NCBI RefSeq assembly: GCF_019634845.1
Contig: NZ_JAHCAQ010000010.1
Span: 1 to 64,000 of the forward strand
DNA length: 64,000 nucleotides
Direction: 5' to 3'
From: Dokdonella sp.
Lineage (GTDB): Bacteria; Pseudomonadota; Gammaproteobacteria; Xanthomonadales; Rhodanobacteraceae
Part shown: positions 35,432 through 55,269 of the stretch, piece by piece
How the letters are laid out: each line of letters starts with the position of its first letter
Numbering within the stretch: the stretch's first letter is position 1
Notes under the pieces: model-generated
What the model was told of the DNA's origin: nothing
Seen by the model: the letters and a program-made list of their open reading frames with translations, nothing else
Database searches by the model: none
Translations under genes and position numbers: made by a program

Positions 35432-36853
35432 ATGCAGCTTCCCCCAACCGTCCCCTTGCGCACACTGCTGCAACAGGCAGCGCATGCCGATCCCGAAGGC
35501 TGGCTGTACCTGCGCAAGGTGCCGGACGCACTGGACGATGTCGGCTTCATCCATGTGGACATTCCCGACGAGCCGGCCGCCGTGCAGAACGCGCGCGCCC
35601 TCGCCTGGGCCGAGACGGACTGGCTGCCCTACCTGCCAGTGGAGGATTTGCAGGCACTGCTGCGCGAGCGCATCGCGCCGGACGCGGACGACGCGGCCCA
35701 GTTGGAGGCGCTGCGCGCATATCTGCTGGACGAAGCCGCGTTCTACCGCGCGCAGCTCGACCCGCGCATCGACCCTGATGCAGGCGATGACGATGACGAC
35801 GACGAAAGCGACGGCTCGCCCGGCTGGGACGCCATCGACGCCGCCTGCGCGCGCCTGTATCCGGACCAGGAGCCGCGTCATTTCGGCACCCTCGTCAAGA
35901 GCTGGATGGGCGGCCACGACCCACTGGACGGCATCAGCGCCTACAAGCGCCTCGATCCGCAGCCGCATTGGCATTTCGTCACCTACGGTCTGTCCGACCT
36001 GTACCAGAACTCGCACGATGGCGCGCACAGCGGCTGGGGGCTGGAACTGAGTTTCCGACTGGCCTGTGCCGCCGACGCCATCGAGCCGCCAAACTGGGCC
36101 TTGAACTTCCTGCAGAATCTGGCGCGTTACGTCAACGACAGCAGCAACGTGTTCCGCGATGGCGACTGGATGAGCGCCAACGGTCCGATCGCGTTGGAGA
36201 CAGACACCCTGCTGCGTTCGATGGGCTTCGTGCTGGATCCGGAACTGGGCACCATCGATACACCCAATGGCAGTGTGGCGTTCCTGCAGGTGGTGGGCCT
36301 GACCGCTGCGGAAGAAGCAGCGGCCCGTCGCTGGAAAACGCGCAATTTGCTGGACGTGCTGCAACCCGCCATGCCGCTGTGGATCACCGACCTGTCGCGC
36401 CCCTGCCTGCTGCAGCGCGAAGACCTGCGCCGCCAGGTCCAGGCCGGTTGCGAACGCGAGGGTTCTTCCAGCGGCATCCTGCACACCGATGTGCTGGACT
36501 GGCGCCAGCAAAAGCGCCTGCTGCGCACGCCGCTGACCGAGATCGTGCTGGGCGCGCGCCAGGCCGGCGACCTGGCCGAACTGCTGCCGCTGCGCCTGCC
36601 GTTTGGACGCGAGTTCGCGCTGAGCGGAAATAACCGCATGGTGATGCTCCAACCGGCGCAGTCGGACAAGATCACCGTTGCCGGTGACACCCTTGTCCTG
36701 CATCTCACCGATGCGACCGTGCGCGGTCTGGCCACCACCTTGCGCACGCAGGCCGGGCGCTATGTGACACCGGGCCTTCCGCAGCTGTGCTGGCAGGTCG
36801 AACCCACGCAGATCCGCGACCACGAAGGCCGCGTGGTGGAGACCATCGGATGA
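35432..36853 (+). CDS. SUFU (suppressor of fused)-domain protein
   Basis: 473 residues. The N-terminal about 100 residues (ALDDVGFIHVDIPDEP, VEDLQALLRE) resemble a DUF7716-type domain. After an acidic linker (DAGDDDDDDESDG) comes a SUFU domain with HFVTYGLSDLY, GWGLELSFRLAC and PPNWALNFLQNLARYV. Bacterial SUFU proteins belong to the wider set of immunity proteins in polymorphic toxin loci. The stop overlaps the next start (ATGA). Confidence 0.8.
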   Translation: MQLPPTVPLRTLLQQAAHADPEGWLYLRKVPDALDDVGFIHVDIPDEPAAVQNARALAWAETDWLPYLPVEDLQALLRERIAPDADDAAQLEALRAYLLDEAAFYRAQLDPRIDPDAGDDDDDDESDGSPGWDAIDAACARLYPDQEPRHFGTLVKSWMGGHDPLDGISAYKRLDPQPHWHFVTYGLSDLYQNSHDGAHSGWGLELSFRLACAADAIEPPNWALNFLQNLARYVNDSSNVFRDGDWMSANGPIALETDTLLRSMGFVLDPELGTIDTPNGSVAFLQVVGLTAAEEAAARRWKTRNLLDVLQPAMPLWITDLSRPCLLQREDLRRQVQAGCEREGSSSGILHTDVLDWRQQKRLLRTPLTEIVLGARQAGDLAELLPLRLPFGREFALSGNNRMVMLQPAQSDKITVAGDTLVLHLTDATVRGLATTLRTQAGRYVTPGLPQLCWQVEPTQIRDHEGRVVETIG

Positions 36854-37794
36854 GTGCGCATCACGGGTTTTCGCAGTCGCACGTGGACGAACTGCGCGCA
36901 CACGGCATCGAACTGTTCGCCGGGCGGGTGATCTTCGACGCGCAACCGCCGCTGTCCGAGGCGGACATCGCGGCGGTGCAGGCGACGTGCAGAGGGCCGC
37001 TGCCCGCGGGCCTGCTCGCCCTGTGGCGGCAGACCGCCGGCGGGCGGCTGGCCTACGACCTCGATCTCGAAATCGAAACCGCCGAAGGCCGGCGCATCGA
37101 GGCAATCAGCTGGACCGAACTGTTCTACCCAGACAGCGGACGCTATCGCGATCTGTGGGGCTGGATCGAACACGAACAGGAACAGGCGCTGGAAATTGCC
37201 GAGGACGCCGGCCTCGACCACGACGGCAAGCTGGACTATCTGCCGTTCGGCGGCTTCGAATACTGCGACCGCATTTACGCGGTGACCGCAGCCGACGCGC
37301 CCGACTGCGGCGGAGTATTGGCCTGGAAGATGGGCCTGCCGCCGGCGTGGGCACCGGCCCTGACCGAAGATGCGGTGACGAGCTTCGCGCCCGATCTGCA
37401 CGCCGCGTTCGCGCAGCTGGCCTTGCACCAGGACCCGCTGGCACCGCACGAGGATTACCACGCCGGCACGGAACTGCTGGAGTACCTGGACGAGCGTCGC
37501 GCGCAGGGCTTGCCGGCGGAACTGGCCGATGCCCTGCTGGCGTTCTACCGCCGCGCCTTGATCGACTGGCGCGGCCTGCTGGAAACCGGCACGCTGGCCG
37601 CGCACCCGCGCGCCTTGCGGCTGGCGCTGGCGCATGCGGTGGAACAGGACGATGCCGGCCTGCTGCGACGCCTTGCTGCCGCCGGCTGCCCACTGGACGG
37701 CCTGGTGCGGGGCAGCGACGACGCGCTGGCCCATGCGCGCTTCCTGAAGAAGCCGGCGGCGGTCGAAACGCTCACCGTGCTGACCCGCCGCTGA
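36850..37794 (+). CDS. SMI1/KNR4 (SUKH)-family protein with helical C-terminal extension
   Basis: 314 residues from ATG 36850. PPLSEADIAAVQATCRGPLPAGLLALWRQTAGG is the SUKH N-terminal signature, and a central YLPFGGFEYCDRIYAVT matches the core strand pair. The C-terminal part (about 215-314) is helical and ankyrin-like (RALRLALAHAVEQDDAGLLRRLAAAGCPLDG). Overlaps the SUFU gene by 4 bases, so the two are translationally coupled. Confidence 0.8.
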   Translation: MSAHHGFSQSHVDELRAHGIELFAGRVIFDAQPPLSEADIAAVQATCRGPLPAGLLALWRQTAGGRLAYDLDLEIETAEGRRIEAISWTELFYPDSGRYRDLWGWIEHEQEQALEIAEDAGLDHDGKLDYLPFGGFEYCDRIYAVTAADAPDCGGVLAWKMGLPPAWAPALTEDAVTSFAPDLHAAFAQLALHQDPLAPHEDYHAGTELLEYLDERRAQGLPAELADALLAFYRRALIDWRGLLETGTLAAHPRALRLALAHAVEQDDAGLLRRLAAAGCPLDGLVRGSDDALAHARFLKKPAAVETLTVLTRR

Positions 37795-37807
37795 GGTTGC
37801 CCCCCGA

Positions 37808-38557
37808 ATGATCCAGCGCCCCCTCCACACGCCCTCCGTAACCACACCAGATGTGGGCTCCCAGATTGCGCGAGTCATGCGCGGCGTCGCTCTGGCGCCA
37901 TGGTTTGCCGCAGCCGCGTGCGTACTGCTGGCTGTACCAGGCACGGCCGATGCCGGCCAGTCTGCCATCGCCCACGTTGCCGCCTGCGGCCTGGAGTTCG
38001 ATCTGCCCGCGGGCTACAAGATCACCCGGCCAAAACGCATGGTGGATGCGCGCGATGGCGCGTCGTGCAGCTTCGACATCGTCAAGGCCAGACCCGATCC
38101 ACCGCAACAGGGCGAATGCAAGGATGAGGAAGACAGCGGCCAGCCACCGTTCGATGTGTGCGACTGGATGATCGACGGCGGCCCCGCCTCGCCCAGCGTG
38201 CTGGTGGTGCGCGTGCGTCCGGGTGGCCGGCCGCTGCTGGATGATTTCGTGTTGGACGATTCAGGCCGCTGGAACGTGACCAATGCGCAGGCTGGCGGCC
38301 AGCCCGCCCAAGCCATCGACTTCTTCGGCAAACCGGCGTGGACAGGCGAAGCCATCGTGCGGATGTACTGGTATCGCGCGCGCACCAAGAATTTCACCGG
38401 CATCTACGCCGGTTCCGGCGGCAGCGACGTCACGCTGGTGCAGTTCGCATCCGATCTGTTCGTGGAATTGCACGACCCGCCGCAGGATGCAAACGGCGAA
38501 TGCACGACGTTCTGCGCCAGCTTGCATCTGGGCGCACGCACGCAAGACCTGCCATGA
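37808..38557 (+). CDS. Exported hypothetical protein
   Basis: 249 residues. A long N-terminus carries an export signal (VALAPWFAAAACVLLAVPGTADA); a shorter start at GTG or ATG near 37878 is possible. The mature part has at least six cysteines and beta-rich segments (LVVRVRPGGRPLLDDFVLDDSGRWNV, GEAIVRMYWYRARTKNFTGIYAGSGG). Function unknown. Its stop overlaps the SUKH gene start by 4 bases. Confidence 0.6.
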   Translation: MIQRPLHTPSVTTPDVGSQIARVMRGVALAPWFAAAACVLLAVPGTADAGQSAIAHVAACGLEFDLPAGYKITRPKRMVDARDGASCSFDIVKARPDPPQQGECKDEEDSGQPPFDVCDWMIDGGPASPSVLVVRVRPGGRPLLDDFVLDDSGRWNVTNAQAGGQPAQAIDFFGKPAWTGEAIVRMYWYRARTKNFTGIYAGSGGSDVTLVQFASDLFVELHDPPQDANGECTTFCASLHLGARTQDLP

Positions 38558-39048
38558 CTCCCGCCGAGCGCATCGACACCCTGATCGCACGCCTACACGC
38601 ATTGGCGCAGCGCGACGAAGACATCGACATCTCCTGGGCCGGCCCCGGCACCGAGCAGGCCCTCACCGCCGTCGAGCAGGCATTGGGCGTGCGCATTGCG
38701 GGCTCGTTCCGCGATTTCATCCTGCGCACCGGTGGCGGCGGGCTGGACTTGTTCCCGATTTCCGCCATCCCCGCCGACGCGCCCCTGGGCGGCTACCACA
38801 CCGTGTACGGCGACACCCTGTATTGGCGTCACGATACGGGCGGCACGCCGCTGCCGCAGCACTTGGTGGTCATCCAGCGCGATCTGGACGACAACGAACC
38901 GTTCTGCCTCGACACCTCGCGCGTGGTGAACGGCGAAAACCCGGTCGTGCTGTTCTATCCCGGCTCTCGCAGTGGACACGTGGATCGCATCGCGCCCGCC
39001 TTCCTCGACTTCTACGAAGCCTACCTCGCGCCGCATTTCGAACAGTGA
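38554..39048 (+). CDS. SMI1/KNR4 (SUKH-1) family immunity protein
   Basis: 164 residues from ATG 38554. The layout is typical: EQALTAVEQALGVRIAGSFRDFILRTGGGGLD, then YWRHDTGG, HLVVIQRDLDDNEPFCLDTSR and a C-terminal helix FLDFYEAYLAPHF. Clear SUKH-1 protein, last gene of the plus-strand operon. Confidence 0.85.
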   Translation: MTPAERIDTLIARLHALAQRDEDIDISWAGPGTEQALTAVEQALGVRIAGSFRDFILRTGGGGLDLFPISAIPADAPLGGYHTVYGDTLYWRHDTGGTPLPQHLVVIQRDLDDNEPFCLDTSRVVNGENPVVLFYPGSRSGHVDRIAPAFLDFYEAYLAPHFEQ

Positions 39049-39671: not shown

Positions 39672-40337
39672 ATGGCAGCAACCGCATCAGTTTCGGCAAG
39701 GCTCAAGAAGCAGTTCCGCGCCTGCATCGAGCAGCACGACGAGTCCGCGCGCGTGCGCTTGCATCGGGCCATCAGTTGGCTCGCGCGTGCCGAAGCCGAA
39801 GACGACGACAATGATGCGCGGTTCGTGTTCCTGTGGATCGCGTTCAACGCCGCCTATGCGCGCGAGTTCGCGCTTGAGGGCAGTGCCCGCGAGCAACTCA
39901 ACGGCTTTTTCGAGCACTTGCTGCGGCTTGATGCAGGCAAGCGCATTGCGGCCCTGCTGCTGCAACACTTTTCCGGTCCGATTCGCACCATGGTGGCGAA
40001 CCGATATGTCTTCGAACCGTTCTGGCGCGCCTTGCGCAGCCACGATTCGAGTGGGCGCTGGGAGACAAGCCTGGCGGCCGGCACCAAGGCCGCGACACGG
40101 GCCATGCTCGACAACCGTGTCGACATCGTCCTCTCTGTCGTGTTCGATCGCCTTTACGTCCTGCGCAACCAGCTCGTGCACGGTGGTGCAACCTGGAACA
40201 GCAAGGTCAACCGCGCGCAGGTGCGCGACGGCGCCCACATCCTGATGGCATTGGTTCCGCTCGTGATCGAGCTCATGGTCGAACACCCGGAGGCAGACTT
40301 CGGCGAGATACTTTTCCCCGTGCTGCCGCCCCATTGA
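39672..40337 (+). CDS. HEPN-domain protein (candidate RNase effector)
   Basis: 221 residues from ATG 39672. An all-helical protein with FLWIAFNAAYAREF in the first half and LYVLRNQLVHGGATWNSKVNR in the second. R165-N-x3-H170 is the R-x4-H motif of HEPN RNases, in the arrangement seen in Apea-like HEPN proteins. HEPN domains cut RNA in toxin-antitoxin, abortive-infection and CRISPR systems. It converges on the AAA+ gene, with 313 bases between, and lies just past the IS remnants. Confidence 0.75.
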   Translation: MAATASVSARLKKQFRACIEQHDESARVRLHRAISWLARAEAEDDDNDARFVFLWIAFNAAYAREFALEGSAREQLNGFFEHLLRLDAGKRIAALLLQHFSGPIRTMVANRYVFEPFWRALRSHDSSGRWETSLAAGTKAATRAMLDNRVDIVLSVVFDRLYVLRNQLVHGGATWNSKVNRAQVRDGAHILMALVPLVIELMVEHPEADFGEILFPVLPPH

Positions 40338-40650
40338 GACGGCCGCTCATGCCCTGCGCAACGGGCGCCGGGTCGTTGCGGCAGCCGACGCCATCAACCG
40401 ACTGCACAAGGCCAAGGTCAGCCAGCGGCAGTCCTGGCGCAACCGCAAGGCCGTGGCGATGGCCACGCCCGAGTCGGTGCAGCGGGCCGATCACCGACAA
40501 CCGCCGCGATCGATCGCCAACACCACCCAGCAGCGGGCACCGTGGCGGCCTGCCGTTGGCGACCGGCGGCGTTGGGCAAGGCACGCATGCCTCGAGCAAC
40601 GCCGCCTGCGCAGCGCACGGAATCGTTCACGGCGCTCGCTCAGCGGTCAA
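40338..40650. other. Gap between HEPN and AAA+ genes
   Basis: 313 bases between two convergent genes. One plus frame directly after the HEPN stop reads AAHALRNGRRVVAAADAINR and stays open for a time, but has no start and no family match. No terminator hairpin with a T-run was found. Confidence 0.35.
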
Positions 40651-42810
40651 CTAGGCAAGGAACCCGATGCGGCGACTGCGGGCTGTCGGCTTCATCGCAA
40701 CTTCCTGCGCAAGCAGTTGCACCACACGTCGCGCCGCAGCGGGTTCGCCAGTCACGCGCAGCTGCCGCAGCACATTCGCGAAGTCTCCCGGCACAAGCTG
40801 ATCGAGGCTTTCCAGGACCGGAAAGGCCGCATCGACATCAGCGCCGTTGCCACAAATGCGCGTCAGCATCGCGCGGCGTTGCTCGCGCGTGAGCCAGTCG
40901 AACTTGACCTTGAAGTCGAAGCGTCGCAGCGATGCCGCATCGAGCGTATCGACGAGATTGGTCGACGCCACGAAGATGCCGTCGAACGCCTCCATCTGCG
41001 TCAGCAACTCGTTGACTTGCGTGACCTCCCATGACCTGGCCGCGCCGGCGCGATCGCGCAAAAAGCCGTCGGCCTCGTCGATCACGAGGATCGCGCGCTC
41101 ATCGCTCGCGCGCCGGAAAGCATCGGCGATGTTGCGTTCGGTCCCGCCCACCCATGAACTCATCAGGTCCGAGCCGCGCTTCACCAGCACGCTGCGGTCG
41201 ATGACTTGGCCAAGGTGATGGGCGAATGCGGTCTTGCCGGTGCCGGGCGGTCCGTACAAGCACAGCCGGGCGCCGCCGTTGTTGCGCCGCAACCCATCCA
41301 CCAGCGTGCCGAGATCGCGGTCCGTGTTGAGGAAGGCCGCGTCGTAGTGTTCGGGCAGCGCGAACGCGGCTGCCCTGACGCGGTGCCCAGCCGCCTTGAG
41401 CATCGAGGTCACGTGGCGCTCAACCTCGGCGTCGCGCACGCGCAGATCCCTGCATCGCAGCGATTTCGCCACACGCGCAGCCTTCTCCACGAAGGCTGGC
41501 ACGAGCGCTTCGACCGCAGCCAGCCGCTCGACACACTGCGCCGACAGCTCGCCATCCTTGAAGTAGCGGCGCACGATGCGCCGACGTGCAGAAGCCGGCG
41601 GCGACGCCAACTCCAACACAAGGTCGAAGCGCCGCAGGTAGGCGTGATCGATGGCACCGATCGAATTGCAGACCCAGAAAGCCGGCACCGGGTTCTGCTC
41701 AAGCATCTGGTTGATCCAGCTCTTGCGCAACTCTTCCGAGTCGCGTCCCGAAAACCTGCCGCCAAGCGTTGCTGCCAGGGCGCCGTCGCTGCCGAACACA
41801 TCTTCCACTTCGTCGAACAGCAGCAACTGCTTGGGTCTGCTCGCGAGCAGGTTTTGGCAAAGGCCGTATGCACTGAAACGCCGGCGGCCTGAGATGGAGT
41901 CGCCGGCGGAGTCCTCATTGGGAACTTCGTGCAGATCGGCGCCGAGCTTGCCGGCAATCGCGCGGACCAATTCGGTCTTGCCGGTCCCCGGTTCTCCGTG
42001 GATCAGCACATTCACACCGCGCCGCGTGCGACGCACGCTGTCGGCGATGTACTGCAATATCGTCGGCAGTTCCGCCACATGCGAATAGTCATCGATCGAC
42101 AGCGTGGCCGGCGGCGACGGCTTGACGAGGCTGCGTAGCAGCTGCGTCTCATCGAGATTGGGCGATGACAGTACGTTCATGACCTCCTGCGACAACTCCA
42201 GCGGATTGGACGAATAGCCATCGTTCCGCCAGTCGGCAAGAAGACCACTGCGCAGCAGGAACGAACCCGGTGCACAGGCCGTCGCTACCGCGCGCGGCCG
42301 CAGGCCCGTTGCGGAATGGATGGCGCGCAGCGCATCCTCGGGCGAGCAGATCACGATGCTGATCAAATCACGGAAATGGCGCGATTGGGTCGCGACCGCA
42401 GCCAAGCGGAGGATTTCGCGCTCCGCCGTGTTGAGTTTGAACGCGTTGCCGAGGTGCGCAATGTTGCGGTCGAGCGCGCGCTCCTTCGAGCGAAAGCGGG
42501 CCTCCAGTTGCCTGCGTCGCGCCCCGAGGGCTTCGCGGAACTCGCCCGGGGTGATCCTGCCGTCATGCGCCGGGCTGCTTTCCAGCCCGACCAGAGTCAG
42601 CACATCGTCGTCGCGCACGCGATTTTGCCGCAGCAAGCGAGCATGCCAATCCTGGTCATCGATCATGCGCAGCGCATAGACGGCGGCCTCCAACTCGCCG
42701 CGCGAGCCTAACGGGATCGCCACGAAGGGCGACGATCGCCGTCGTGAGGGCGGCGCGAGCGGCGCTGCGTCGTCGACGAGAAAATCATCAAAGCCGTAGT
42801 CCTGCGTCAT
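40651..42810 (-). CDS. Tandem AAA+ ATPase
   Basis: 719 residues from ATG 42810 (MTQDYGFDDF); a 10-residue longer start is possible. An N-terminal helical domain (about 1-240) of unknown fold precedes two AAA modules. Module 1: Walker A GEPGTGKT (272-279), Walker B LLLFDE (329-334), sensor/arginine region AYLRRFD. Module 2: Walker A GPPGTGKT (520-527), pore-loop SSWVGGTERN, Walker B ILVIDEAD (574-581), ASLRRFDFK. Both modules look catalytically intact, so this is likely a ring ATPase that remodels or unfolds a partner. It is divergent from the WYL regulator with 109 bases between starts. Confidence 0.88.
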   Translation of the reverse strand: MTQDYGFDDFLVDDAAPLAPPSRRRSSPFVAIPLGSRGELEAAVYALRMIDDQDWHARLLRQNRVRDDDVLTLVGLESSPAHDGRITPGEFREALGARRRQLEARFRSKERALDRNIAHLGNAFKLNTAEREILRLAAVATQSRHFRDLISIVICSPEDALRAIHSATGLRPRAVATACAPGSFLLRSGLLADWRNDGYSSNPLELSQEVMNVLSSPNLDETQLLRSLVKPSPPATLSIDDYSHVAELPTILQYIADSVRRTRRGVNVLIHGEPGTGKTELVRAIAGKLGADLHEVPNEDSAGDSISGRRRFSAYGLCQNLLASRPKQLLLFDEVEDVFGSDGALAATLGGRFSGRDSEELRKSWINQMLEQNPVPAFWVCNSIGAIDHAYLRRFDLVLELASPPASARRRIVRRYFKDGELSAQCVERLAAVEALVPAFVEKAARVAKSLRCRDLRVRDAEVERHVTSMLKAAGHRVRAAAFALPEHYDAAFLNTDRDLGTLVDGLRRNNGGARLCLYGPPGTGKTAFAHHLGQVIDRSVLVKRGSDLMSSWVGGTERNIADAFRRASDERAILVIDEADGFLRDRAGAARSWEVTQVNELLTQMEAFDGIFVASTNLVDTLDAASLRRFDFKVKFDWLTREQRRAMLTRICGNGADVDAAFPVLESLDQLVPGDFANVLRQLRVTGEPAAARRVVQLLAQEVAMKPTARSRRIGFLA

Positions 42811-42855
42811 CGTCGTAGTCTCCGTGCCAAGTGCCTCCATGGTTGGGCATACTCA

Positions 42856-42870
42856 CGACATATGGCGTCG
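42856..42870. promoter_or_regulatory. Candidate operator between AAA+ and WYL genes
   Basis: CGAC-N7-GTCG around a CATATG core in the 109-base divergent spacer. A dimeric WYL repressor could bind here and control both genes. Weak evidence. Confidence 0.2.
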
Positions 42871-42919
42871 CATGCGGCAGCGCACTTGACATGGGACGAC
42901 GCACTGGGAGGGTGAGCGA

Positions 42920-43933
42920 ATGAAGAGGAACCAGCAATCCATCGAGACGGCCAAGCGCTACATCGCGATGCTCGGCTACATCCCGCGCCGCCCCCACAAG
43001 ATCACCACCAGCGAGCTGTCAGCGAAGCTGGAGGCCGCCGGGCTGCGAATCGATGTCCGCAGCATCCAGCGCGACCTCAACAAGCTGTCCACGAACTTCC
43101 CGCTGGTCAGCGACGAGGCGCGCCCGGCGGGTTGGTCGTGGCGGGAGGAAGGGCCCCAACTGAGCATTCCGCACATGGATCTCTCCACGGCGCTGACGTT
43201 CGAACTGCTGTCGCGCTACCTTTCGCCCATCCTGCCCCGCAAACTCCATGCGCACCTGCGGCCCAATTTCGCCGAGGCGCGGCATGTACTCGACCAGATG
43301 GGCGCATTGCCGTTGGCGCGATGGTCAAAGAGGATCGCGGTCGTTCCTGCATGGCAACCGCTTCTTCCGCCGGAGGTCAGCGGACCGGTGCTCGATGTGG
43401 TCTACGAGGCACTGTTGTCCGCAGTACGCTTCGAGGCCGACTACCTTGCACTGGGCTCCGACAAGGCCAAACGCTACGTCTTCAACCCACACGGGCTTGT
43501 CTATCGGCAAGGCGTGATCTACCTCGTCGCAAGCCTGTTCGACTGGGACAACCCCATGCTGTTCGCGCTGCACCGGATGTCGGGTGTCGTGCTTCTGGGC
43601 GATGCCGCGCGCAACCTCAAAGACTTCGACCTCGACCGCTACATCAACGAAGAGCATGCGTTCGAGATCCCATCGGGCGCCACGCTCCGCATCGAGCTGC
43701 GGCTCGCTGCGTGGCTGGCGCGCCACCTCGGCGAGTCGCGCCTGTCGAAAGACCAGACCATTGCACCCATTCGTGGCAGCGATCAATTCCGACTCGTTGC
43801 AACCGTGGCGGACACGGCACAGTTGCACTGGTGGCTTCGCGGCCTGGGGCCGGACGTCGAGATCCTGAAGCCGGCCGCGCTGCGCAGGAAGATCAAGGCC
43901 GACGTGGCTGAACTGGCGTCGATGTACCGCTGA
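42920..43933 (+). CDS. WYL-domain transcriptional regulator
   Basis: 337 residues. An N-terminal winged helix (about 1-80, TTSELSAKLEAAGLRIDVRSIQRDLNKLS), a central WYL domain (about 150-230, RYVFNPHGLVYRQGVIYLVASLFD then LFALHRMSGVVLL) and a C-terminal WCX-type domain (ATLRIELRLAAWLARHL, WWLRGLGPDVEILKP). WYL regulators such as BrxR and CapW control phage-defence operons. The neighbouring AAA+ ATPase (divergent) and DUF2779 nuclease (52 bases downstream) are likely targets. Confidence 0.9.
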   Translation: MKRNQQSIETAKRYIAMLGYIPRRPHKITTSELSAKLEAAGLRIDVRSIQRDLNKLSTNFPLVSDEARPAGWSWREEGPQLSIPHMDLSTALTFELLSRYLSPILPRKLHAHLRPNFAEARHVLDQMGALPLARWSKRIAVVPAWQPLLPPEVSGPVLDVVYEALLSAVRFEADYLALGSDKAKRYVFNPHGLVYRQGVIYLVASLFDWDNPMLFALHRMSGVVLLGDAARNLKDFDLDRYINEEHAFEIPSGATLRIELRLAAWLARHLGESRLSKDQTIAPIRGSDQFRLVATVADTAQLHWWLRGLGPDVEILKPAALRRKIKADVAELASMYR

Positions 43934-43985
43934 TCGTCGTTGCTGCGGTTGCCTGCGACGCTACCTGTCGCACTACTGATACACA

Positions 43986-45566
43986 ATGCAGGCCATGAAC
44001 GCTACAGTCCGCCGCACCAAGCCAGCCGCGCCTGGCAACAAGCCGAAACCGGCCACGCCACGGCTGTCCAAATCCCGCATCCAGTCGGGTCGACAGTGCC
44101 ACAAGCGCCTGTGGCTCGAGATACACCAACCCGACGCCATCCAGTGGGATGACTCGGCCCAGGCACGCCTGGACCAAGGCACGGCGTTCGGCGAGCTCGC
44201 CCGTGACCTGCTCGGCGGCGGGTTGCTGATCGAAGCCGACCACCGGCACTTCGACCAAGCGCTCGCACAGACGCGCGACGCGCTGTCCTGCAGCCGTTCG
44301 CGACTGCCGCGCCTGTTCGAGGCAGCCTTCGAGTTCCAGGGCGTGCGCGTGCGCGTCGACGCGCTCGAGCGCGGTCGCAACAGCGATACCCTGATCGAAG
44401 TGAAGTCCTCGACCGGGGTCAAGGACGAATATCTGTGGGACTGCGCAATCCAGGCGTGGGTGCTGCGTGGTGCTGGCCGGCCGCTGCGCCAGATCGCTCT
44501 GGCGCACGTCAACAATCAATTCGTCTACACCCGCGAAGGCGACTACGACGGCCTGCTCGCGATCGAGGACATCACGGCGGAAGTCGAGGCCCTGCTGCCG
44601 AGCATCCCGGCGCTCGTTGCAGAACTGAAGCGTGTCGCCAAGGGCGACCTGCCGCGGATTTCGACTGGCGCGCATTGCCACACGCCCTACGAGTGCCCGC
44701 TGCTCGCATACTGCCAGGCCCGCGAGCCCAAATTGCCGGACTATCCGGTCGATGTCCTGCCGCGAGGTCACGCGCTCATCGCGCAGTTGCGCGCGCAAGG
44801 CCATGTCGACATCCGCACCGTGCCCGACCACTTGCTGACGCGCGACACCCACAAGCGCATCGCGGCCGCAACCCGTGACAACAAGCCATTCGTGTCCGAC
44901 GAGTTCGCCTCGATTCTCGATGCAATCGCGTATCCACGTTTCCATCTCGATTTCGAAACGATCCAGTACGTCGTCCCACGCTGGCTCGGGACACGCCCAT
45001 TCGAACAGTTGCCGTTCCAGTTCTCGTGCCATGTCGAGGATCGCGGCGGCACTCTGCGGCAGGAAGCGTTCCTCGATGTTTCCGGCCACCCACCCCTTGC
45101 CGCGCTCGTCGATCGCCTGATCGAAGTGGTCGGCAAGTCCGGGCCGATTCTGGTCTGGAACCAGGGTTTCGAGGGCCGTTGCATTCGTGAGCTGGCCGCA
45201 CGATTTCCGGAGAAGCGCAAAGCGCTGCTGCGCATCGTCGACCGCCTGGTCGACCTCCTGCCGATCTTCCGCGAGCATTACTACCACCGCGACATGCTCG
45301 GGTCGTGGTCGATCAAGGCCGTGCTGCCGACCATCGCGCCCGACCTCGATTACGGCGATCTCGACATCGGCGACGGCGGCGCCGTGCAACTGGCGTACCT
45401 GGAAGCGATTGCGCCCGATACGACGGCGCGCCGGCGCGAGGAACTGCGCAGCCAGATGCTCGCCTATTGCGAGCGCGATACGCTGGCCATGGTCAGGTTG
45501 TCCCAGTGGCGACCGGCAGCCGCGGTCCGCCGCGCCAATCGCGGGGGCCGCGCGAAAGCCTCATGA
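43986..45566 (+). CDS. DUF2779 protein: Cas4-like Fe-S nuclease plus DEDD exonuclease
   Basis: 526 residues; ATG 43995 is an alternative start. The N-terminal half is RecB/Cas4-like: C38 (SGRQCHKRLW), D125 (RVRVDAL), E138-V-K140 (LIEVKSS), and a C231-x5-C237-x5-C243 cluster, together the PD-(D/E)xK nuclease with a four-Cys Fe-S site. The C-terminal half is DUF2779, a DEDD-type exonuclease: D322-x-E324 (HLDFETI), NQGFEGRCI and YCERD near the end, a YxxxD third motif. Both nuclease sites look intact. Such proteins occur in bacterial defence neighbourhoods; substrate unknown. Likely co-transcribed with the WYL gene. Confidence 0.85.
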   Translation: MQAMNATVRRTKPAAPGNKPKPATPRLSKSRIQSGRQCHKRLWLEIHQPDAIQWDDSAQARLDQGTAFGELARDLLGGGLLIEADHRHFDQALAQTRDALSCSRSRLPRLFEAAFEFQGVRVRVDALERGRNSDTLIEVKSSTGVKDEYLWDCAIQAWVLRGAGRPLRQIALAHVNNQFVYTREGDYDGLLAIEDITAEVEALLPSIPALVAELKRVAKGDLPRISTGAHCHTPYECPLLAYCQAREPKLPDYPVDVLPRGHALIAQLRAQGHVDIRTVPDHLLTRDTHKRIAAATRDNKPFVSDEFASILDAIAYPRFHLDFETIQYVVPRWLGTRPFEQLPFQFSCHVEDRGGTLRQEAFLDVSGHPPLAALVDRLIEVVGKSGPILVWNQGFEGRCIRELAARFPEKRKALLRIVDRLVDLLPIFREHYYHRDMLGSWSIKAVLPTIAPDLDYGDLDIGDGGAVQLAYLEAIAPDTTARRREELRSQMLAYCERDTLAMVRLSQWRPAAAVRRANRGGRAKAS

Positions 45567-48546: not shown

Positions 48547-48759
48547 GTGGGCACTGAACCCTGGCAATCGGTGGCGCAGCTCGCCGCGCATCTGGGCGTC
48601 ACCCGCGACTCCATCAGCTGCCGCATCGAGCGCAAGCACCTGCCGGCGCATCGCGTCGGACGGCTGTGGAAGTCCAAGGTCTCCGAGGTGGATGACTGGG
48701 TGCGCGGCGGTGGCGCCGACGACAACAACATGAACGACTCGACAGGACAGCAACGATGA
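48547..48759 (+). CDS. Excisionase-type helix-turn-helix protein of the type I R-M locus
   Basis: 70 residues from GTG 48547. [45 protein letters not shown] is an HTH_17/excisionase-like DNA-binding domain. It overlaps hsdM by 4 bases (ATGA), so it is part of the operon and may control its expression. HTH genes in this position are frequent in type I R-M loci. Confidence 0.8.
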
Positions 48760-50327
48760 CCAGCGCCCAGCAACGCGCCGAACTGCAACGCCAGATCTGG
48801 GCCATCGCCAACGACGTGCGCGGCGCGGTGGATGGCTGGGACTTCAAGCAGTACGTGCTGGGCACCTTGTTCTACCGCTTCATCAGCGAAAACTTCGCCA
48901 GCTACATCGAAGCCGGTGACGACAGCGTGCGCTACGCCGACATGCCCGACAGCGTCATCACCACCGCCATCAAGGACGATGCGGTCAAGACCAAGGGCTT
49001 CTTCCTCTATCCCAGCCAGCTGTTCGCCAACGTCGCGGCCAGGGCCCACGGCAACGACAGCCTCAACACCGACCTCGCGGCCATCTTTGCCGCCATCGAA
49101 GCCTCCGCCAACGGCTACCCGTCCGAGCACGACATCAAGGGCCTGTTTGCCGACTTCGACACCACCAGCAACCGCCTGGGCAACACCGTCAAGGACAAGA
49201 ACACGCGCCTGGCCGCGGTGCTCAAGGGCGTGGCCGGGCTGGATTTCGGCCATGATTTTTATGAAAAGGGCGACGCCAGCCACATCGACCTGTTCGGCGA
49301 TGCCTACGAATTTCTCATCTCCAACTACGCCGCCAACGCCGGCAAATCCGGCGGCGAGTTCTTCACCCCGCAGCATGTCTCGCGCCTGATCGCGCAGCTG
49401 GCCATGCACGGCCAGGCCAGCGTCAACAAGATCTACGACCCCGCCTGCGGCTCCGGCTCGCTGCTGCTGCAGGCCAAGAAGCACTTCGACGCCCACCTCA
49501 TCGAAGACGGCTTCTACGGGCAGGAAATCAACCACACCACGTACAACCTGGCGCGGATGAACATGTTCCTGCACAACATCAACTACGACAAATTCGACAT
49601 CCAGCTCGGCAACACCCTGCTCAATCCGCACTTCGGCGATGAAAAGCCGTTTGACGCCATCGTCTCCAACCCGCCGTATTCGGTGAAGTGGCTCGGCAGC
49701 GACGATCCCACCCTGATCAACGACGAACGCTTTGCCCCCGCCGGCGTGCTGGCGCCCAAGTCCAAGGCCGATTTCGCCTTCGTGCTGCACGCGCTGCACT
49801 ACCTCTCCGGCCGTGGCCGCGCGGCCATCGTCTGCTTTCCGGGCATCTTCTACCGCGGCGGCGCCGAGCAGAAGATCCGCCAGTACCTGGTGGACAACAA
49901 CTTTGTGGAAACGGTGATCGCACTGGCGCCCAATCTGTTCTACGGCACCACCATCGCCGTGAACATCCTGGTGCTGTCCAAACACAAGACCGACACCGCC
50001 ACCCAGTTCATCGACGCCAGCGAATTGTTCAAGAAGGAAACCAACAACAACGTGCTGCTGGCCGAGCACATCGAACGCATCATGACCGTGTTCGCCAGCA
50101 AGGAAGACGTGCCGCACTTCGCCCGCTGCGTGCCGCACGCGCAGGTGGCCGCCAACGACTACAACCTGTCGGTGAGCAGCCATGTGGAGGCGAAAGACAC
50201 CCGCGAAGTGGTGGACATCGCGCAGCTCAACGCCGAAATCAAGACCACCGTGACCCGCATCGACCAGCTGCGCCGCGAGATCGACGCCATCGTGGCGGAG
50301 ATCGAGGGCGGGGAGAACGAGGCATGA
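48756..50327 (+). CDS. hsdM: Type I restriction-modification methyltransferase subunit HsdM
   Basis: 523 residues. N-terminal HsdM helical domain ([33 protein letters not shown]), SAM motif [14 protein letters not shown], and catalytic motif IV N305-P-P-Y308. As N-6 adenine methyltransferase it forms M2S, and with HsdR the R2M2S restriction complex. Overlaps hsdS by 4 bases. Confidence 0.96.
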
Positions 50328-51517
50328 GCCGCGTGGCGTTTCTGGAGAAGCTGCTCGATGGGGCGGAGGTGGAGTGGAAGGCGCTGGGGGATGTGGGCGA
50401 CTTCATTCGCGGAAACGGGATGCAGAAGAAGGACTTTGTTGAGGAAGGATTCCCCGCCATCCATTACGGGCAGCTCTATACCCGCTATGGGCTTTCGGCA
50501 GAACGAACCTTCACATATGTGCCCGAGAAACTGGCAAGCCAGTTAAGGCGAGCTCAAAACAATGATCTTCTCCTTGCCACAACGTCAGAAAACGATGAAG
50601 ACGTCGTGAAACCGCTCGCTTGGCTTGGTGGTGAAGTGGCGATATCAGGTGACATGATGCTGTTCAGGCATGCGCAGAACGTGAAATATCTTGCGCATTA
50701 CTTTCAAACCATTGCGTTTCAGGATCAGAAAAAAAAGTACATCACCGGCGCTAAGGTTCGCCGAGTATCAAGCGGCGATCTTGCCAAGCTAGTCGTCCCA
50801 ATCCCCTGCCCCAACAACCCGAACAAATCGCTGGAAATTCAGTCCGAAATCGTCCGCATTCTGGACGCATTTACCGCGGTGACCAGCGAGCTGACCAGCG
50901 AGCTTAGCGCACGCCGGAAGCAATACAACCACTACCGCGACAAGCTGCTGCGTTTTGAAGACGGGGAAGTGGAGTGGAAGACGTTGGGGGGCGTGGCGAC
51001 AATTGGTACCGGTAGTCACGATACTCAGGATTCAATTGCTGATGGCAAGCATATTTTTTTCGCACGCGGTCGTGAGCCTTTACGCCTAAACGAGTTTGAT
51101 TTTGACGAAACTGCAATCATCACGGCGGGAGATGGCGCGGGGGTGGGCAAAGTATTTCACTATGTCCAAGGAAAATATGCGCTACATCAGCGGGCATACC
51201 GCATAGTTCCTTGCGCAACTATCAATCCGCGATTCGTATATCACTGCATAAAATCTCATTTTTACACGTATATACAAAAGGCATCGGTGAGTTCATCTGT
51301 GACCTCACTGCGTAGGCCGATGTTCTTAAACTTCCCGATACCAGTTCCACCCCTCGCCGAACAAGCCCGCATCGTCGCCATCCTCGACAAATTCGACGCC
51401 CTCACGAATTCGCTGAGCGAAGGCCTGCCGCGCGAAATCGAGCTGCGCCGCAAGCAGTACGAACACTACCGCGATCTGCTCTTGAGCTTTTCTCGCACCC
51501 ACGGAGCCAGTGCATGA
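50324..51517 (+). CDS. hsdS: Type I restriction-modification specificity subunit HsdS
   Basis: 397 residues from ATG 50324. Two target-recognition domains (about 20-190 and 215-370) are separated by conserved helical regions. The central [26 protein letters not shown] and terminal [15 protein letters not shown] repeat one motif, and AEVEWKALG near the start echoes the middle one, giving the usual pseudo-twofold symmetry. The two recognition domains are visibly AT-richer than the flanking sequence, consistent with exchange between alleles. Target sequence cannot be read. Overlaps fic by 4 bases. Confidence 0.92.
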
Positions 51518-52119
51518 TTCTGGAAAACAAACTCAACATCGACAATCAGGTCGAGCTCGCCAGGGCCGAAGAGAAACTCAGCAAACAAAAAGCCAAGCGG
51601 CTATTTGACTCGGGCGACATCCACAAGGCAGAGGTCGGCACTTTCAGCGACCTGTCGTTCATCCACGCCTATTTGTTCGGCGATATTTATCACTTCGCAG
51701 GCAAGATCCGTGAGGTCAATATCGCCAAAGGTGATTTCCGGTTCGCGCCCGTGCTTTACCTCGATGCCGCCTTGAAGCGCATCGATGCCATGCCGCAAAA
51801 CACATTCGATGACATCATCGAACAATATGTGGAGATGAACGTCGCCCACCCGTTCCGCGAGGGCAATGGCCGCGCCACCCGTATCTGGCTGGATCTGATG
51901 CTCAAGAAGGCAATCCGGCAGATAGTGGATTGGAATGGGGTGGACAAAGCCGAATACCTCTCGGCGATGCAGCGCAGCGTGGTGAAGGATCTGGAAATCA
52001 AGGCGCTGCTCAAACAAGCCCTCACCGACAAAGTTGATGACCGGGCCTTGTTCATGAAAGGCATCGATGTGAGCTATTACTACGAAGGCTATGACGAATT
52101 CAAAACCGACGAACTGTAA
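51514..52119 (+). CDS. Fic-domain protein (putative AMPylase) inside type I R-M locus
   Basis: 201 residues. The Fic core is intact: catalytic H112-P-F-x-E-G-N-G-R120 (HPFREGNGRATRIW), preceded by IYHFAGKIREVNIAKGDFRFAP, the flap region. Fic proteins transfer AMP or other nucleotides to target proteins and are common as an extra gene in type I R-M operons. It overlaps hsdS by 4 bases and sits 51 bases before hsdR. Whether an inhibitory glutamate is present was not established. Confidence 0.93.
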   Translation: MILENKLNIDNQVELARAEEKLSKQKAKRLFDSGDIHKAEVGTFSDLSFIHAYLFGDIYHFAGKIREVNIAKGDFRFAPVLYLDAALKRIDAMPQNTFDDIIEQYVEMNVAHPFREGNGRATRIWLDLMLKKAIRQIVDWNGVDKAEYLSAMQRSVVKDLEIKALLKQALTDKVDDRALFMKGIDVSYYYEGYDEFKTDEL

Positions 52120-52170
52120 CGCGCAGCCTGCAGGGAAAATGCGGTTCCAATCAAGGCAAGAACAAGCCCC

Positions 52171-55100
52171 ATGATCGACTACAAGCCCATCGCCGAATCC
52201 AACAGCTTCATCGTCCTCGACCGCTATACCAAGACATGGCAGGTCGCCGAGGGCTACCAGAGCGAGGATGCGCTGGAGCGCGAGTTCATCGAGGACTTGC
52301 GTAGCCAGGGCTACGAATACCTGCCCGGCTTGAACACGCCCGAAGCTCTGCTGGCCAATGTGCGCACGCAGTTGCAGGCGCTCAACGACGTGCAGTTCTC
52401 CGACAGCGAATGGGCGCGCTTCGTGGAAACCTTCCTGGACAAGCCCAGCGACGGCATTGTCGAGAAGACCCGCAAGATCCACGACGACTACATCCACGAC
52501 TTCACCTTCGACGATGGCCGCATCCAGAACATCTACCTGCTGGACAAGCAGCACATCGCCCGCAACAAGGTGCAGGTGATCCGCCAGTTCGAGCAGGGCG
52601 GCAGCGCCGCCAACCGCTACGACGTAACCATCCTGGTCAACGGGCTGCCGCTGGTGCAGGTGGAACTGAAAAAGCGCGGCGTGGCCATCCGCGAGGCCTT
52701 CAACCAGGTGCACCGCTACAGCAAGGAGAGCTTCAACAGCGAACACTCGCTGTACAAGTATTTGCAGCTGTTCGTGATCTCCAACGGCACCGATACCCGC
52801 TACTTCGCCAACACCACGGCGCGCAACAAGCACAGCTTCGACTTCACCATGCACTGGGCCAAGGCCGACAACAGCCCGCTGCGCGACCTGAAAGACTTCA
52901 CCGCCACCTTCTTCCAGAAGCTCACCCTGCTCAAGGTGCTGCTGACTTATTCGGTGTTCGACGTCAGCGACACGCTGCTGGTGATGCGTCCCTACCAGAT
53001 CGCCGCCACCGAACGCATTTTGTGGAAGATCGCCAGCAGCCATCAGGCGAAAAACTGGAGCGACGTGGAAAGCGGCGGCTACGTCTGGCACACCACGGGC
53101 AGCGGCAAGACGCTGACCAGCTTCAAGGCGGCGCGGCTGGCCACGGAGCTTGCTTTCATCGACAAGGTGTTCTTCGTGGTGGACCGCAAGGATCTGGATT
53201 ACCAGACCATGAAGGAATACCAGCGCTTCTCGCCCGACAGCGTGAATGGCTCGGACAGCACGGCGGGCCTGAAGCGCAACCTGGAGAAGGACGACAACAA
53301 GATCGTCGTCACCACATTGCAGAAGCTCAACAACCTGATGAAGGCCGAGCGCGACCTGCCCATCTACGGCAAGCCGGTGGTGTTCATCTTCGACGAGTGC
53401 CACCGCAGCCAGTTCGGCGAGGCGCAGAAAAACCTGAAAAAGCGCTTCAAGAAGTTCTGCCAGTTCGGCTTCACCGGCACGCCGATCTTTCCCGAGAACG
53501 CGCTGGGCGCGGACACCACCGCCAGCGTGTTCGGGCGCCAGCTGCATTCGTATGTGATCACCGATGCCATCCGCGACGAGAAGGTGCTCAAGTTCAAGGT
53601 GGACTACAACGATGTCCGCCCGCAGTTCCGCGCCATCGAGCGCGAGCAGGACGACAGGAAACTGAGCGCGGCGGAAAACCGGCAGGCCCTGCTGCACCCA
53701 CAGCGCATCGACGAGATCACGCAGTACATCCTGACCCACTTCCGGCAGAAGACCCATCGCCTGCAGGCCGGCGCGCGCGGCTTCAATGCCATGTTCGCGG
53801 TGGCCAGCGTGGATGCGGCCAAGCTGTACTACGACGCCTTCAAGCGCCTGCAGCAGGGCAGCGACAAGCCCCTGCGCGTGGCGACGATTTTCTCGTTCGC
53901 CGCCAACGAGGAGCAGGACGCGGTGGGCGACATCGCCGACGAGAGCTTCGAGGTGTCGGCCATGAATTCAAGCGCCAAGGAGTTCCTTGGCGCTGCCATC
54001 GGCGACTACAACGCGCAGTTCAAGACCAATTTCGGGGTGGACAGCCACGGCTTCCAGAACTACTACCGCGAGCTGGCCAAGCGCGTGAAGGAACAGGACA
54101 TCGACCTGCTGATCGTGGTCGGCATGTTCCTGACCGGCTTCGACGCGCCGACGCTCAACACCCTGTTCGTGGACAAGAACCTGCGCTACCACGGCCTGAT
54201 CCAGGCCTATTCGCGCACCAACCGCATCTTCGACGCCACCAAGACCTTCGGCAACATCGTCACCTTCCGCGATCTGGAACAGGCGACGGTCGATGCCATC
54301 ACCCTGTTCGGCGACGCCAACACCCGCAACGTGGTGCTGGAGAAAGGCTACAAGGAATACATGGAAGGCTTTACCGACGCGGCCACCGGCGAGGCGCGGC
54401 GCGGCTTCATGGCGGTGGTGGCGGAGCTGGAGCAGCGTTTCCCGGACCCTGCCGCCATCGAGAAGGAAGCCGACAAGAAAGCCTTTGCGAAGCTGTTTGG
54501 CGAGTATCTGCGGGTCGAGAATGTGCTGCAGAACTACGACGAATTCGCCAGCCTGAAAGCCTTGCAGCGCATCGATACCAGCGACCCGCAGGCGGTGGAA
54601 GCGTTCAAGGCGCAGCAGGGTCTTGGCGATGACGATTACGCCGCGCTGCAGGCCATCCGACTGCCTGCCGAGCGCAAGATCCAGGATTACCGCTCCACCT
54701 ACAACGACATCCGCGACTGGCTGCGCCGCGAGCGCGCCGGCGAAGAAAAAGCCAAGTCCAGCATCGATTGGGATGACGTGGTGTTCGAAATCGACCTGCT
54801 CAAGTCGCAGGAGATCAACCTCGATTACATCCTGGAGCTGATCTTCGAGAAGAACCGCAAGGTCAAGGACAAGGCGGCGCTGGTGGAGGATGTGCGCCGG
54901 GTGATCCGCGCCAGCCTTGGCAACCGCGCCAAGGAAAGCCTGGTGGTGGACTTCATCAACCGCACCGACCTGGATGCGCTCGGCGACAAGGCCAGCGTGA
55001 TCGAGGCCTTCTTCACCTTTGCCCAGGCCGAGCAGCAGCGCGAGGCGCAGGAACTGATCGACGCCGAAAGCCTGAATCCGGAGGCGGCCCGGCGTTATCT

Positions 55101-55269
55101 CGCCACGTCACTCAAGCGCGAATACGCCAGCGAGAACGGCACCGAGCTCAACGCGCTGCTGCCGAAGATGAGCCCGCTCAATCCGCAGTACCTGGGCAAG
55201 AAGCAAAGCGTGTTCCGCAAGGTCGCCGCCTTCGTCGAAAAGTTCAAAGGCGTGGGCGGGCAGCTATGA
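52171..55269 (+). CDS. hsdR: Type I restriction endonuclease subunit HsdR
   Basis: 1032 residues, EcoR124-like. N-terminal PD-(D/E)xK nuclease ([23 protein letters not shown]), helicase motor with Walker A TTGSGKT (308-314), DECH (408-411) and FTGTPIF, then motif V/VI segments ([35 protein letters not shown]), and a C-terminal helical domain that binds the methylase. Intact, so the locus is probably functional. Confidence 0.96.

Follow-up and report, generated by a model that had tools for sequence, protein, structure and literature searches.

The region between positions 39672 and 45566 of a 64,000-nucleotide stretch of Dokdonella sp. DNA (NZ_JAHCAQ010000010.1, positions 1 to 64,000; referred to below as the window) was analysed as a candidate antiviral cassette. 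It carries four genes, coding for a HEPN-like protein, a tandem AAA+ ATPase, a WYL-WCX regulator and a DUF2779 protein, as well as two candidate operators (Table 1). The genome amounts to 3.26 Mb in 27 contigs, with the window on contig C2. A first-pass annotation, made from the sequence alone, had proposed that the four genes form a single defence module, with the HEPN gene convergent with that of the ATPase. All four genes and the convergent orientation were confirmed, and the catalytic residues are kept in aligned relatives. The length of the ATPase is counted from an inner ATG, and an alternative start at 42840 would give a protein of 729 residues. Searches for sigma-70 promoters and terminators between positions 39000 and 45700 returned one and none, respectively, vs 0.6 and 4.1 in shuffled sequences.

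Table 1. Genes and candidate operators of the putative cassette (window coordinates; aa, amino acids).
Feature	Position	Strand	Description
HEPN-like protein	39672..40337	+	221 aa; R165-x4-H170
Tandem AAA+ ATPase	40651..42810	-	719 aa; Cdc48/Rix7-like D1 and D2; N-terminal region predicted mostly helical
Candidate operator O1, ACGACATATGGCGTCGC	42855..42871	no strand	AAA+/WYL gap; 2 mismatches to GCGACA-N5-TGTCGC
WYL-WCX regulator	42920..43933	+	337 aa; divergent from AAA+
Candidate operator O2, GCGACGCTACCTGTCGC	43955..43971	no strand	In the WYL/DUF2779 gap; 1 mismatch to GCGACA-N5-TGTCGC
DUF2779 protein	43986..45566	+	526 aa; begins 52 bases past the end of the WYL gene; Cas4-like PD-(D/E)XK residues and four Cys N-terminal; DEDD RNase H-like exonuclease C-terminal

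Pfam AAA was matched in two stretches of the ATPase (1.9e-40). Two intact Walker sites had been read in this protein, and both ATP sites proved invariant: the Walker A lysines K278 and K526 and the acidic pair of either Walker B motif are identical in all 19 aligned homologues, as are both pairs of arginine fingers, and an aromatic residue is found in the D2 pore loop of 17 of the 19. The ATPase has the two AAA domains, intact Walker A and B motifs, and arginine fingers expected of a Cdc48-type tandem AAA+ protein. Its best NCBIfam matches (25 of 47) include none that reaches the family cut-off. The nearest solved relatives, by both sequence profile and fold, are Cdc48/VCP-like and Rix7/NVL proteins, although the template modelling (TM) scores are modest (0.34-0.57 among the 50 matches listed; single-chain model with a predicted local distance difference test score, pLDDT, of 83 and a predicted TM score of 0.59). 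As these are its closest relatives, protein threading is the likeliest activity, and the ATPase probably threads or dismantles proteins in the manner of Cdc48 and Rix7.

The regulator combines WYL (1.6e-12) and WCX (1.2e-13) domains, the pair that is characteristic of BrxR/CapW-type proteins. Its description as a divergent member of the family holds, since the name-giving motif reads IYL and the W column is variable in relatives. No helix-turn-helix family was matched at its N-terminus in Pfam at an E-value of 1, and a PADLOC WYL model covers residues 11-320. In the PDB, matches up to an E-value of 0.1 were limited to 7u02 and 7tzv (about 0.08), both of which are other WYL proteins.

The DUF2779 protein matches Pfam family PF11074 (1.4e-39; 135.6 bits vs a cut-off of 23.3), which is still listed there as a family of unknown function. 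The two nuclease sites and the cysteines noticed in the first-pass annotation are conserved: D125, E138, K140, C231, C237, C243, D322, E324, D423 and D498 are identical in 18 of 18 aligned homologues, and C38 in at least 90% of them. A PDB sequence search found no solved relatives up to an E-value of 0.1. One source assigns to COG2251 and DUF2779 an RNase H-like domain found together with a DUF83 domain that resembles PD-(D/E)XK nucleases (PMC3985635).

In the HEPN-like protein, R165 and H170 are identical in 18 of 18 aligned homologues and conform to the R-x4-6-H motif. For the window protein itself there was no match in Pfam at an E-value of 1 or in NCBIfam at 0.01; a PDB fold search gave no match at 0.001 or better, and no solved relative was found by PDB sequence search. 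The HEPN label is based on the motif, an all-helical model (pLDDT, 85.5), weak Pfam RiboL-PSP-HEPN matches in 4 of the 18 relatives (best E-value, 0.0059), and the records of most listed plasmid homologues, in which they are named "HEPN domain-containing protein".

The distribution of these families was surveyed in 299 genomes of the order to which the window belongs (E-value thresholds of 1e-60 for AAA+, 1e-8 for HEPN, and 1e-20 for DUF2779). The ATPase is patchily distributed, being detected in 20 genomes and in none of the three same-genus genomes of the sample; HEPN was found in 21 genomes and DUF2779 in 26. The ATPase shares 12 genomes with HEPN (Fisher test, 3e-11) and 12 with DUF2779 (1e-9), and, as judged by eye, the two genes lie within 10 kb of each other in nine of the 12 genomes in either case and on different contigs in the other three. 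HEPN and DUF2779 occur together in six genomes (p 0.005), all of which also have the ATPase.

Gene neighbourhoods were compared in 72 AAA+ loci, comprising 21 of the window's order (window included), 39 of 80 loci from a bacterial and archaeal scan (the other 41, weak AAA+ matches with E-values of 2e-25 or worse, were left out), and 12 of 18 plasmid records. Seven loci with no called AAA+ gene above 250 bits were dropped, and removal of near-duplicates reduced the remaining 65 to 63. When neighbour families were counted without being selected beforehand, WYL was found in 40 of the 63 loci, DUF2779 in 14, and HEPN in 11, with every other family in five at most; a tblastn recount gave 39, 16, and 12, respectively. 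The corresponding figures for the 65 loci are 44, 15, and 12 by profile and 40, 17, and 13 by tblastn. The three commonest neighbours are the very partners that had been proposed, and the linkage on which the proposal depended is thereby borne out. Both methods miss genes: the home-made gene caller overlooked AAA+ (L029), WYL (L025), HEPN (L091, L205) and DUF2779 (L036, L111) genes, and tblastn in turn misses divergent WYL genes found by profile. Two loci fetched through HEPN matches (L208, L209) favour HEPN, the count of which is 10/63 (profile) or 11/63 (tblastn) without them.

Twenty control regions, comprising 375 kb and 309 called genes, were hand-picked at arbitrary and thus non-random places of AAA+-bearing genomes; they hold none of the four families by profile and none of the three AAA+ partners by tblastn. 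Based on the neighbour counts set against these empty regions, and on the co-occurrence on plasmids described below, chance proximity was rejected. The families also diverge in step, with rho values of 0.59 for AAA-WYL (41 loci), 0.80 for AAA-DUF2779 (14 loci), 0.66 for AAA-HEPN (12 loci), and 0.62 for WYL-DUF2779 (12 loci), each with p 0.002 or below. All four families were found together in 4 of the 65 loci by profile and in five by tblastn, and an obligatory four-gene system was rejected on these counts. Thus, of the single module proposed initially, the recurring four-gene neighbourhood stands, whereas a fixed four-gene system is too strong a description of what appears to be a set of modular parts.

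Comparison of seven AAA-WYL gaps led to the palindrome GCGACA-N5-TGTCGC. Against shuffled sequences, the 95% limit is exceeded only in the gaps of L026 and L036, in the latter by another repeat, and is equalled in that of L037; a 13-bp repeat in the AAA-WYL gap is not above shuffles (8.0 vs 8.5). At one mismatch or fewer, 73 sites were found in 2.11 Mb of fetched loci, and 47 in the first 60 loci vs one in shuffled sequence, both totals including five sites counted twice because L029 and L111 overlap; the 20 control regions hold three. Within 150 bp upstream of genes, the palindrome precedes 21 of 67 AAA+ genes (a few pieces included) at up to one mismatch and 33 at up to two. At the stricter limit it is present before 11 of 50 WYL and 6 of 28 DUF2779 genes, as compared with 20 of 1192 other genes of the same loci and 0 of 295 in control regions. 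The position is also conserved: the AAA+ site lies 45-62 bp from the start in 25 of 32 loci at up to two mismatches vs 7 of 32 with poorer matches. A site was found in 27 of 43 AAA+ loci that have a WYL gene vs 5 of 21 that do not (p 0.0035). In the window, the centre of O1 lies upstream of both AAA+ (by 53 bp) and WYL (by 57 bp), and that of O2 is 23 bp before DUF2779.

Five of the DUF2779 genes with a site belong to AAA+ loci (the window, L031, L033, L038, and L118), and by eye two sites lie in the ~100 bp upstream of a DUF2779 gene of L111 (G242) that the gene caller missed. No palindrome precedes DUF2779 in the ten DUF2779 loci of family f8 that have no AAA+ gene. Exact copies occur in 15 of the 20 AAA+ genomes of the order survey vs 87 of the 279 others (p 1.4e-4), a count to which the AAA+ loci themselves contribute. 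In L028 and L118, sites adjacent to HEPN were rejected as HEPN operators, being located behind the 3' ends of HEPN and upstream of AAA+ and DUF2779. In other loci, an exact palindrome also precedes PDDEXK_4, Sir2, and PLD genes, which suggests that one WYL protein may govern several genes of an island. The spacer of 5 bp is that of the BrxR half-sites described in two reports (PMC9122601, PMC9122589), making the WYL protein the natural candidate binder, and it may be supposed from this likeness that it binds GCGACA-N5-TGTCGC. The WYL control postulated in the first-pass annotation has thus gained a candidate operator, predicted from the sequence, before both AAA+ and DUF2779.

Two further loci with the palindrome are worth recording. 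In L034 (11253-13493), a 746-amino-acid protein with no Pfam match at an E-value of 0.001 starts 83 bp past an exact copy, divergently from AAA+. An unverified "Bacteriophage sp." contig (L278, MT835507.1), which may be bacterial DNA, carries an AAA+/WYL pair with two palindromes at one mismatch.

The arrangement of the partners varies. In a metagenome-assembled genome of Rhodanobacteraceae (L118) all four genes are compactly arranged, with AAA+ divergent from a WYL-HEPN-DUF2779 run (called-gene gaps of 64 and 103 bp). Plasmids of Diaphorobacter and Rhodoferax have AAA, DUF2779, and WYL in this order on one strand, with DUF2779 directly behind AAA+. On a plasmid of Fuscovulum, AAA and WYL precede an ADP-ribosylglycohydrolase gene, a HEPN gene, and genes for a PD-(D/E)XK nuclease and a helicase of the UvrD type. 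On one of Sphaerotilus, WYL and AAA adjoin genes of the bacteriophage exclusion (BREX) type BREX-2 and a MoxR/VWA pair. Elsewhere, the neighbours of tandem AAA+ genes include a MoxR-type AAA gene, a DUF2201/VWA gene, and one for an uncharacterised protein of ~600 amino acids (L041, L042, L198). In Alphaproteobacteria (L142, L144, L205, L207), AAA+ is accompanied by WYL and by genes for a PD-(D/E)XK nuclease and UvrD helicase, in some cases with ADP-ribosylglycohydrolase.

Among 72,556 plasmid records searched, AAA+ was found on 18 (E-value, 1e-30) and HEPN on 23, 15 of which are typed as conjugative; five records have both AAA+ and DUF2779, and four both AAA+ and HEPN. The 23 HEPN records include 17 with an alphaproteobacterial WYL gene, 14 with a TM0106-family nuclease, which we take to be COG2251, and only four with AAA+. 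According to coordinates entered by hand from the record tables, WYL and TM0106 lie within 12 kb of each other in 29 of their 30 common records, 80-180 bp apart in 22 of these. WYL-TM0106 pairs are found in L208, L210, L211, L213, and further plasmids, in several cases with HEPN of the window family and SbcCD-like genes. WYL and the TM0106-family nuclease are thus regarded as a candidate for a second cassette. Since DUF2779 and TM0106/COG2251 are both RNase H-like proteins with DUF83, WYL is repeatedly accompanied by one of two related nuclease architectures.

Defence-type surroundings, as anticipated, were found when 95 neighbour and 95 control proteins, selected with a script out of 133 and 233 eligible genes, respectively, were compared with PADLOC at an E-value of 1e-20. 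The AAA+ neighbours match 81 models and the controls 10, mostly helicase, the figures being numbers of models and not of genes. Among the best 25 of the 81 are AbiE, helicases of the BREX/DISARM type, and several candidate systems. In the window itself, positions 36787-39048, just upstream of the HEPN gene, contain an immunity-type gene of the SUKH (SMI1/KNR4) family that clears the Pfam cut-off (3e-13) and a second, SUKH-like gene below it (E-value, 0.0013). Positions 48571-55269 hold apparent type I restriction-modification genes (523- and 1032-amino-acid proteins, read from open reading frames without a family scan), and the G+C content drops to about 0.55 across this stretch, which suggests a recent acquisition.

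Taken together, the evidence tips somewhat in favour of a WYL-regulated, modular, horizontally moving antiviral cassette, in which an ATPase core is combined with exchangeable nucleases. Gene linkage, conserved active-site residues, the recurrence and position of the palindrome, and defence-type matches among the sampled neighbours are the observations from which we infer that the WYL protein binds the palindrome, in which direction it exerts control, what the substrate is, in which order the steps follow, and that the cassette acts against phages. The core would consist of the tandem AAA+ ATPase and a WYL repressor or switch, with the DUF2779 protein, a predicted Cas4-like PD-(D/E)XK nuclease and DEDD exonuclease, as a frequent partner and the HEPN RNase as an optional fourth member. 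A WYL dimer may hold the promoters at O1 (AAA+/WYL, divergent) and O2 (DUF2779) until relieved by a nucleic-acid signal from infection or DNA damage. The ATPase would then strip or remodel a protein-DNA or protein-RNA complex of the invader, the nuclease would degrade the nucleic acid, and HEPN might add RNA cleavage, with the cell being stalled. A wider proposal, which we regard as speculative and rather unlikely, is an as yet undescribed class of bacterial immunity built on a Cdc48-like unfoldase, in which one WYL protein would control interchangeable nucleases (DUF2779, PD-(D/E)XK, PLD, and any HEPN located behind WYL) through repeated GCGACA-N5-TGTCGC operators and the ATPase would extract invader proteins before cleavage.

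Several observations weigh against the modular cassette. WYL is the only partner in 25 of the 65 AAA+ loci by profile (20 by tblastn), and none of the three partners was detected in 18 (20 by tblastn), so that DUF2779 and HEPN are not obligatory, though 13 of the 65 loci are shorter than 12 kb and some absences are therefore cut-offs. Of the 26 genomes with DUF2779, 14 lack a detected AAA+ at the thresholds used, as do 9 of the 21 with HEPN. Divergence of WYL and HEPN is weakly correlated (rho 0.51, p 0.051, nine loci), and all of these correlations ignore the species tree. As many as 34 of the 67 AAA+ genes have no site even at two mismatches, and a sixth DUF2779 gene with a site (L113) belongs to a genome without detected AAA+. 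The window genome has little excess of palindromes at up to one mismatch (28 vs 21 for the reversed control), and its sole exact copy falls inside a called open reading frame. Finally, none of the 26 HEPN genes is preceded by the palindrome at one mismatch or fewer, and one is at two. HEPN therefore looks accessory, in agreement with its earlier ranking as the least certain member, although it directly follows WYL in some loci.

The most serious alternative, which we nevertheless consider unlikely, is that these are separate defence genes with a common island and regulator, AAA+/WYL being one unit and DUF2779 and HEPN others, with no joint pathway. The partners are indeed exchangeable, PDDEXK_1 with UvrD, ADP-ribosylglycohydrolase, Sir2, MoxR-VWA, SNF2 and PLD proteins, and GmrSD all being found among them; the palindromes before PDDEXK_4, Sir2, and PLD genes, and the preference of plasmid-borne HEPN for WYL and TM0106 over AAA+, would fit this explanation too. 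However, DUF2779 is much more frequent than the other nucleases (14 loci, with five for the next families), follows AAA+ directly and in the same orientation on two plasmids, and diverges in step with it (rho 0.80). A regulon for DNA damage and repair, with WYL sensing single-stranded DNA and the ATPase and exonuclease engaged in end processing, appears improbable. WYL regulators of DNA-damage responses exist, PafBC reportedly responding to single-stranded DNA, and Cas4-like and DEDD domains are generally known to process DNA ends, but the patchy distribution, plasmid carriage, and defence-type neighbours are unlike those of a repair pathway. Least credible is a toxin-antitoxin-like arrangement in which the ATPase restrains or unfolds a HEPN or DUF2779 effector: a putative Cdc48-like unfoldase does lie beside potentially toxic nucleases and WYL-HEPN pairs occur, but both effectors are found in genomes without detected AAA+, which is thus not needed to tolerate them.

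WYL regulators adjoin many defence genes, and the genes that they control are seldom clear from sequence; a short and positionally conserved palindrome makes the targets of this one directly testable. If the ATPase is a Cdc48-like unfoldase, protein extraction would be a step in bacterial immunity coupled to a two-domain nuclease. No account of the cassette or of the palindrome was found in the main texts of the open-licence literature searched, and the four-gene cassette is apparently undescribed, its novelty being provisional.

In comparison with known systems, the ATPase resembles Cdc48/p97 and Rix7/NVL in its two AAA domains, intact ATP sites, and aromatic D2 pore loop, and differs from them in its mostly helical N-terminal region as predicted. 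Its best PADLOC matches cover one AAA domain. The top match, to D2, is IetA of IetAS (1.5e-35), whereas the window protein has two AAA domains; membership was rejected, as the IetA equivalog score is 109.4 bits vs a cut-off of 510, and no IetS subtilase was matched among the four proteins, the remaining window genes not having been scanned for it. BREX membership was likewise rejected, no BREX model (BrxC, PglX, and PglZ included) being matched by the four proteins (other window genes were not scanned). TRIP13 was matched at domain level only (9e-17), and a cyclic-oligonucleotide-based antiphage signalling system (CBASS) with TRIP13/Cap6 was rejected for lack of a cyclase or HORMA partner model among the four proteins.

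The DUF2779 protein shares with Cas4 and AddB iron-sulphur nucleases the D/E-x-K residues and four conserved Cys, but scores below the Pfam cut-off for Cas4 (11.5 vs 22.7 bits) and so falls outside that family; its Cys spacing is x5, x5, that of Cas4 presumably being x2, x5, and a DEDD exonuclease is fused to it. The TM0106 plasmids similarly have WYL beside a nuclease that, as COG2251, would be of the Cas4-like and RNase H-like kind (PMC3985635), often with HEPN of the window family. They differ in having TM0106 (~1100 amino acids) in place of DUF2779, AAA+ in only 4 of 60 records, and WYL genes (L208, L210, L211, L213) whose closest match to the palindrome has 3-5 mismatches, no strong palindrome being found in four WYL-TM0106 gaps.

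Among regulators, one report describes RptR as a defence-island repressor with the 6-bp palindrome TAGCTA (PMC12255303), and BrxR binding sites are described as 11-bp and 10-bp half-sites with the spacer noted above. The window WYL protein resembles BrxR and CapW in having WYL and WCX domains beside defence genes and a palindrome with a 5-bp spacer near the promoter. It differs in that the BrxR entries 7QFZ and 7T8K are not among its PDB matches up to an E-value of 0.1, in its other, recurring half-site GCGACA, and in its partners, which are a tandem AAA+ ATPase and DUF2779 instead of BREX or CBASS.

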